Source: Ectobacillus funiculus (GTDB lineage: Bacteria > Bacillota > Bacilli > Bacillales > Bacillaceae_G). Taken from it: 41,135 nt of DNA. Shown here piece by piece: positions 28,557 through 32,622 of the stretch. Numbering within the stretch: the stretch's first letter is position 1; every line of letters begins with the position of its first letter. Below the pieces are notes generated by a model that saw only the letters and a list, made by a program, of their open reading frames with translations, searched no databases and was not told the origin of the DNA. A program made the position numbers and the translations under genes. The stretch is from NCBI RefSeq assembly GCF_004138295.1, contig NZ_SCFM01000058.1, positions 1 to 41,135 of the forward strand, given 5' to 3'.

Positions 28557-28584
28557 TTGACAAAATAAAGTATATTTATATAGA
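28557..28584 (+). promoter_or_regulatory. Promoter of the riboswitch transcript
   Basis: A perfect -35 TTGACA (28557-28562), 16 bp and TATAGA (28579-28584). The predicted start near 28591 lies just before the riboswitch aptamer. The 340 bp upstream, back to dedA, shows no gene. Confidence 0.65.
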
Positions 28585-28599
28585 TAAAAAATAAAGTTT

Positions 28600-28695
28600 C
28601 GATAAAGGCAAACCTATTGAAAGATAGGGACGCAAAGCTACAGGTCTAAGGTGGGAGAGGTATGCCGCTCCCACTATGATTGCTGGGCTGCCGTA
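28600..28695 (+). promoter_or_regulatory. Cyclic-di-GMP-I (GEMM) riboswitch
   Basis: The aptamer reads GGCAAACC (28607-28614), then hairpin CCTAT-TGAAAG-ATAGG with a GAAA tetraloop, the hallmark GGGACGCAAAGC (to 28638), the P3 hairpin GTGGGAG/CTCCCAC (28651-28674) and TGGGCTGCC (28684-28692) closing P1 by GGCA/TGCC. These are the conserved elements of the class I c-di-GMP riboswitch. No terminator hairpin follows. The ribosome site GGAGGG at 28700 lies only eight bases after P1, so control is probably translational. Confidence 0.93.
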
Positions 28696-28715
28696 ATACG
28701 GAGGGAACTACAGGG

Positions 28716-28949
28716 GTGAAGGTGCTAGTTGAATTACCGATGGAAGACAAGCAAGCTGATTCTAATGATTTGAAATGGATGGACGTACTTTTGGATGCTA
28801 AACAAAATAACCCAGCCATTATTGAGCAAAAAAGAAGGCAACTACTTCATCTAGGTAAACTATATGGATTAACTCATCCTAAAACTATCAAATGCAGTCA
28901 ACAACTAGACAAATTAATCAACCTATCTATGAGGGGACAAATTGTATAG
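28716..28949 (+). CDS. Spo0E-like aspartyl-phosphate phosphatase
   Basis: A 77-aa protein with the Spo0E-family helix-loop-helix: EQKRRQLLHLGKLYGLTHP, then the signature CSQQLDKLIN with the catalytic-type SQxLD core near the C-terminus. These small proteins dephosphorylate Spo0A-P and delay sporulation. GTG 28716 is preferred, ten bases after GGAGGG; an in-frame ATG at 28740 is an alternative, and reading from 28680 would start inside the aptamer. An N-terminal extension of about 30 residues precedes the family core. The gene sits directly behind the c-di-GMP riboswitch. Confidence 0.82.
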   Translation: MKVLVELPMEDKQADSNDLKWMDVLLDAKQNNPAIIEQKRRQLLHLGKLYGLTHPKTIKCSQQLDKLINLSMRGQIV

Positions 28950-29160: not shown

Positions 29161-29203
29161 AAAAAGGGACAGATTCGTAAGTGTATGAATCTGTCTCTTT
29201 TTG
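29161..29203. terminator. Bidirectional terminator
   Basis: GACAGATTC and GAATCTGTC form a 9-bp stem flanked by AAAAAGG and TCTTTTTG. It lies between the Spo0E-like gene and the convergent ywbE. Confidence 0.85.
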
Positions 29204-29210
29204 TTTGTTA

Positions 29211-32505: not shown

Positions 32506-32622
32506 TAACCCCATGTGTCTTAAGGTATGTTACAATTCAGGGCCGATAAGTAAGATGTGCCATACAAGAATACAGCATTGGGTTGTATTTTTTCGTGAAA
32601 ATGGTAATAAAACACGGAAAAA

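Follow-up and report, generated by a model that had tools for sequence, protein, structure and literature searches.

The Spo0E proteins of Bacillus and C. difficile belong to a family that carries the SxxxD signature and represses sporulation, Spo0E acting by inactivation of Spo0A (PMC11115286), and, according to a review, it is not yet known which signals act on Spo0E (PMC12471899). The question raised by the locus described here is whether one such signal could be cyclic di-GMP, sensed by an RNA lying directly in front of a Spo0E-like gene. The locus belongs to a contig of 41,135 nt from Ectobacillus funiculus, hereafter the window (the whole stretch of DNA analysed), for which an original prediction had proposed that a c-di-GMP riboswitch sets the threshold for sporulation through a Spo0E-family phosphatase. 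Our analysis supports that interpretation in part. With rather better than even confidence, we favour the reading that a class I c-di-GMP riboswitch controls the translation of the Spo0E-like phosphatase, and that it does so as an ON switch, delaying sporulation via Spo0A-P. The aptamer-Spo0E pair names one signal, one RNA and one target for the control of Spo0E.

As an RNA it belongs to a known class, GEMM-I, and is an ordinary representative of it. Positions 28597 to 28695 of the forward strand match the c-di-GMP-I family over its full length (RF01051, model positions 1-87 of 87; 83.3 bits compared with a gathering score of 35, E 4.2e-15), and the alignment marks no non-standard pair, so that the well-formed aptamer originally proposed is confirmed by the covariance model. 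It is the only c-di-GMP-I aptamer in the window and the top scorer among the seven RF01051 matches of the genome. The two sequence blocks common to the aligned aptamers, GGCAAA and GACGCAAA, are both present, and the likeness to GEMM-I extends to the GAAA loop, the core formed by the second block and the usual P1 register; the difference lies in the target, a Spo0E-like gene, which appears undescribed. The c-di-GMP contacts, which in Vc2 numbering are G20, A47 and C92 (PMC11218506), are predicted to fall at G28607, A28634 and C28691 by our own mapping to the Rfam consensus, made on sequence only.

The gene that follows on the same strand occupies positions 28716 to 28949, its GTG start lying 20 nt beyond the end of the aptamer, and encodes a protein of 77 aa in which residues 36-73 match the Spo0E family (PF09388; E 2e-15, 56.9 bits compared with a curated cut-off of 23). 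The solved chains 2c0s (E 2.2e-6) and 2bzb (E 6.6e-4), both of which we take to be Spo0E-like proteins, match over residues 36-72. A terminator scan found no terminator between aptamer and gene, and the placing of a Spo0E-family gene directly downstream and in the same orientation is thus upheld. The likely Shine-Dalgarno sequence (SD), GGAGGG at 28700-28705 (+), is separated by 4 nt (28696-28699) from the aptamer as delimited by Rfam; the adjacency had been correctly foreseen, and the distance of eight bases given for it is to be replaced, the two figures differing because each depends on where the aptamer is taken to end.

The original prediction also gave the RNA a promoter of its own. The hexamer TTGACA is present at 28557-28562 on the forward strand, and together with the best -10 sequence seen, TATAGA at 28579-28584 after a spacer of 16 nt, it matches the promoter consensus at 10 of 12 positions by our own count. 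This putative promoter at 28557 would plausibly let transcription begin directly ahead of the aptamer and its P1 helix; we do not count it as shown, because a promoter scan, which found one site where shuffled sequences gave a mean of 3.1, did not list the pair of hexamers. On the 3' side of the gene, an inverted repeat, GGGACAGATTC / GAATCTGTCTC, with flanking A- and T-runs (29161-29204, either strand) is terminator-like on both strands as judged by eye; it is missing from the terminator scan, which ended at 29200, inside the repeat. The Spo0E-like gene looks monocistronic. Elsewhere in the window, nine tRNA genes are clustered at positions 3-840.

Dephosphorylation of Spo0A-P by the 77-aa protein is what we infer from its family, since the protein is, like the Spo0E of Bacillus and C. 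difficile, a small member with the SxxxD signature (SQQLD, residues 61-65). Its best named match is a protein of Ectobacillus panaciterrae, 74% over residues 35-72. The genome, of 5.4 Mb in 146 contigs, contains 15 matches to PF09388 and, in favour of the preferred reading, five to GGDEF (one with internal stops) and one Spo0A. The abundance of Spo0E-like proteins, together with the lack of any Pfam match for residues 1-35 and of any NCBIfam name for the five aptamer-linked Spo0E proteins considered below, lends some weight to the alternative that the riboswitch is functional and the Spo0E paralogue acts on a response regulator other than Spo0A. The signature itself and the match of the solved relatives over the core speak against this alternative, which we regard as a minority reading to be taken seriously, and Spo0A-P is retained here as the probable substrate.

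How could ligand binding reach the ribosome site? In the lowest-energy fold of the window RNA the end of the aptamer forms a hairpin, CCGU-AAU-ACGG (28691-28701, +), which overlaps both the 3' strand of P1 and the first two bases of the SD, and a second helix, AGUUUC:GGAACU, joins 28595-28600 to 28704-28709. The segment 28595-28601 (+) is in this way the 5' strand common to the competing helix and to P1, which pairs 28596-28601 with 28692-28697 in five of six positions around one U-U mismatch; P1 and the SD-covering hairpin are mutually exclusive in the folds. The P1 register has support beyond the window, for over 157 of 158 aptamers (one lay too near a contig end) it gives 58% standard pairs, compared with a mean of 46% and a maximum of 49% when the partners are shuffled. 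We would accordingly picture a switch in which, in the absence of ligand, the aptamer end (28691-28694) pairs with ACGG at 28698-28701 and AGUUUC (28595-28600) with GGAACU (28704-28709), the two pairings together covering four of the six SD bases, and in which, with c-di-GMP, P1 would take up both competing strands and free the SD. More Spo0E would then be made, Spo0A-P would fall and sporulation would be delayed.

An ON sign is predicted because the mean unpaired probability of the SD, 0.36 in the free RNA and 0.35 with the aptamer core enforced, rises to 0.77 when core and P1 are both enforced. Enforcing P1 costs 8.9 kcal/mol (ensemble energy -48.1 to -39.2), which is much to ask of the ligand, and when only the core is enforced the hairpin's two outer C-G pairs have probabilities of 0.98-0.99. 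Across 24 leaders (the window, L002, L237 and, from the 34 SinI leaders introduced below, 21), the aptamer tail pairs with 6.7 SD bases on average, compared with 4.3 when the tail is shuffled; seven of the 24 reach p <0.05, and the tail-to-SD pairing taken singly is not above shuffles in the window (p 0.24), L002 (0.75) or L237 (0.70). P1 is poor in L002 (three of the first six pairs) and in L237 (two of six), and in the lowest-energy fold of L002 a helix between the aptamer arm CUCCAGAUC and GAUCUGGGG covers the SD of its first small ORF. From these models we lean, weakly and by a little over even, towards a window riboswitch that is ON with c-di-GMP.

The reverse arrangement, in which a helix of the bound state covers the SD, so that c-di-GMP would lower Spo0E and favour Spo0A-P, draws on two observations. 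A shorter fragment of the window RNA pairs UUUCG with CGGAG over the SD, and two leaders of other families, L318 and L410, have a terminator-like hairpin 3' of the aptamer, whose modelled behaviour we read as OFF. The first of these folds breaks the GC:GC pairs of the aptamer's P1b and so is not the ligand-binding form, and the P1 register supported over the 157 aptamers frees the SD; we therefore consider the reversed sign unlikely for the window. In the nascent folds of L318 and L410 an antiterminator overlaps the 3' strand of P1, equally with or without the aptamer pairs enforced, and their equilibrium folds are silent on the sign, since the terminator is kept in both states. Because these two look OFF, an ON or OFF sign is not a property shared among the pairs, and our ON reading is one for the window alone.

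Whether the adjacency of aptamer and gene is itself more than an accident can be asked within the same genome, which holds a second such pair. On contig C56 an aptamer at 32507-32597 (- strand) has a Spo0E-like gene behind it, the ATG lying 106 nt further on; between them is a short ORF with a start of its own, in frame with the Spo0E core and ended by a TAG. The window and C56 aptamers are mutual best matches among the 158 aptamers compared, which makes a common origin of the two pairs likely. In the core, two further Spo0E-like genes of this genome are closer to the window's protein (71% and 69%), and no aptamer was seen at either. With two of seven aptamers preceding Spo0E the binomial P is 1.7e-4 (for the 15 Spo0E-like matches, with about 5300 genes in all assumed), a figure to be read in the light of the probable kinship of the copies, which are not independent events; the adjacency in this genome is more than chance. 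The contrary view is that the aptamer once served another gene, behind which a Spo0E-like gene landed, leaving a chance neighbour or a decaying copy free of selected regulation. The TAG before the core in C56 is what such decay would look like, and the keeping of two related pairs in one genome speaks against this view.

Recurrence elsewhere bears on the same choice. Our survey joined 158 aptamers from 48 genomes to 123 from 84, that is 281 aptamers in 132 Bacillales genomes, drawn from the best-scoring matches listed (100 of 108 and 100 of 105 further places read); two loci cut by contig ends (L316, L320) were dropped. It used a widened Spo0E profile that may miss odd Spo0E types, L237 having been scored weakly by the narrow profile and placed by Pfam. 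Among the matches listed, five of the 281 aptamers have Spo0E as the first clear gene downstream on their own strand: the window, C56 (after its short ORF), L237 (genome G051), L318 (G113) and L410 (G233), the last three confirmed by Pfam at 3.3e-10, 5.5e-13 and 1.2e-15. These three belong to three other families (f34, f20 and f2), which makes four families in all. Outside the source genome there are thus three pairs among 274 aptamers, compared with 0.33-0.78 expected by chance (P 0.0045-0.045, assuming 5-12 Spo0E genes per 4200 and counting related genomes as independent), and this, too, disfavours a fortuitous adjacency. Within the window's own family, where 33 of 36 aptamer matches were read, no Spo0E was seen behind the 26 aptamers read of the 29 listed from other genomes, and the pair was not seen in congeners. 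The expectation that the pair would be conserved beyond this genome is consequently borne out in part, because it is absent at the family aptamers read and recurs in three other families.

Wide conservation of the pair was set aside when the search was begun from the other side. In 80 Spo0E loci taken from at least 277 in relatives, an aptamer occurs only in L123 and L135 (records of L055 and L064), and in both it lies 3' of the gene. Among the 30 loci L052-L081, five have an aptamer 3' of Spo0E, and only the window's own L052, whose DNA was examined as L001 and L008, has it 5'. These Spo0E-then-aptamer loci (Anaerobacillus L054, L055, L060, L064 and L080, and the viral L297, the one match in nine viral contigs scanned for aptamers) were rejected as instances of the same system, the aptamer following the gene. 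By eye, a clear short ORF stands 3' of the aptamer in L055 and L064; no clear gene was found there in the other three Anaerobacillus loci or in L297. The upstream position of Spo0E looks incidental, because the next gene in genome G210 (L319) is folE-like. Spo0E-like genes were also noticed on Geobacillus phage TP-84 (KY565347.3, 33868-33990; two records) and on 19 Priestia plasmid records. Orthologous replacement at the window locus was considered and set aside as well, there being no empty site for comparison among eight DUF2196 loci of other family genomes; three of the eight (L291-L293) have the window's 154-aa gene, three congener loci share DUF2196 alone with the window, and neither the VTT gene nor Spo0E was matched at any of the eight, none of which holds an aptamer.

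The commoner partner of this aptamer class is SinI. Among the matches listed, a SinI-like protein is encoded directly behind 34 of the 281 aptamers (L049, L051, L082-L095, L097, L098, L100, L204, L205, L217, L225, L233, L242, L253, L254, L256, L257, L258, L278, L282, L377 and L415); a stricter filter gives 30, the count by rows adding L233, L257, L282 and L377, whose frames open earlier and end behind the aptamer. All 20 proteins submitted to Pfam were confirmed as SinI (E 0.01 or better), half of the 34 cases come from the window's family, and a SinR-like protein stands next after SinI in several loci. Aptamer to SinI looks like a general wiring in Bacillales. SinI leaders often carry an SD-covering hairpin; several fit the switching scheme drawn above for the window, with hairpins such as CCUGAAAUAC...GUAUUUUAGG joining the 3' strand of P1 to the SD. 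A putative c-di-GMP riboswitch before sinI, whose product antagonises SinR, is listed for Bacillus methanolicus MGA3 (PMC4342826). That system and the window share the ligand class and its place ahead of a small regulatory gene in the Spo0A/SinR network, and they differ in the target, SinI antagonising SinR and the Spo0E family inactivating Spo0A. The open-access literature searched, most subscription papers lying outside its scope, yielded no description of Spo0E as a c-di-GMP riboswitch target, and in its available text a review naming both Spo0E and riboswitches does so in unrelated places. Within that literature, the view that the wiring to Spo0E is not an established one stands; what the original prediction had missed is the commoner arrangement with SinI and its listing for B. 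methanolicus.

All three congeners have the aptamer-SinI arrangement (L094, L095, and L082 with L098), at loci that by our own reading have a pckA-like gene on one side and an ABC transporter on the other, and their SinR proteins match at E 1.7e-37, 4.1e-36 and 2.4e-35. The window's genome gave no SinI match and no SinR orthologue at E 0.001 (a draft of 146 contigs, completeness 100), the best SinR match reaching E 1.3e-5. Aptamer and SD region of the window are 84% identical to the congener SinI leaders L082, L094 and L095, and a change of target from SinI to Spo0E in this lineage would be possible; it is put no higher because similar identities are reached by unrelated leaders (L031 83%, L033 85%). 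The same figures, and the fact that SinI is usual behind the congener aptamers read and Spo0E is not seen there, count in favour of a Spo0E-like gene having landed behind another gene's aptamer. Weighed with the pairs in other families, that explanation seems to us improbable, and regulation of Spo0E by the aptamer remains the preferred reading. A broader proposal, which we offer only tentatively and hold to be the less probable side of the matter, is that the output of the riboswitch moved from SinI/SinR to Spo0E in this lineage, both former partners being lost and two aptamer-Spo0E units carried, with c-di-GMP then setting the Spo0A-P threshold itself, and that the c-di-GMP-I riboswitches of Bacillales repeatedly plug into the SinI/Spo0E layer that decides between biofilm and spore. 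The presence of SinI and Spo0E behind the same aptamer class suggests an RNA control layer over the antagonists of SinR and Spo0A.

The adjacency suggests a direct link from a biofilm signal to the decision to sporulate, and it has a parallel in C. difficile, where c-di-GMP inhibits early sporulation (PMC8653836), just as less sporulation at high c-di-GMP is predicted for the window. The difference is that no riboswitch appeared to affect sporulation genes there, and Spo0E is absent from the available text of that paper; conversely, the main text of the Spo0E study (PMC11115286), in the form available, has neither c-di-GMP nor a riboswitch, unlike the window pair. As cited in PMC8653836, deletions of single c-di-GMP enzymes in B. 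thuringiensis and B. anthracis had no effect on sporulation, and sporulating B. subtilis cells have high c-di-GMP, so that a simple c-di-GMP brake on sporulation fits poorly; the same source describes the bearing of c-di-GMP on sporulation in B. subtilis as relatively unexplored. A further point against the preferred reading is the Bc1 c-di-GMP-I riboswitch, which binds its ligand although no accompanying change in expression was measured (PMC11218506).

Other aptamers of the survey stand before quite different genes. Eight (L027, L041, L042, L198, L216, L218, L220 and L232) precede a small protein that is presumably DUF192-like, and three (L036, L210 and L319) a folE-like gene for GTP cyclohydrolase I, as read from the protein. 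In the source genome itself, an aptamer on contig C82 (L005) lies 27 nt before a 93-aa regulator, ArsR-like by eye, and on contig C78 two aptamers (L006, L007) stand in tandem about 200 nt apart, with a long repeat protein made of ELGISTDGKDSETLQKEIRDTKVKAEAK units read upstream of them.
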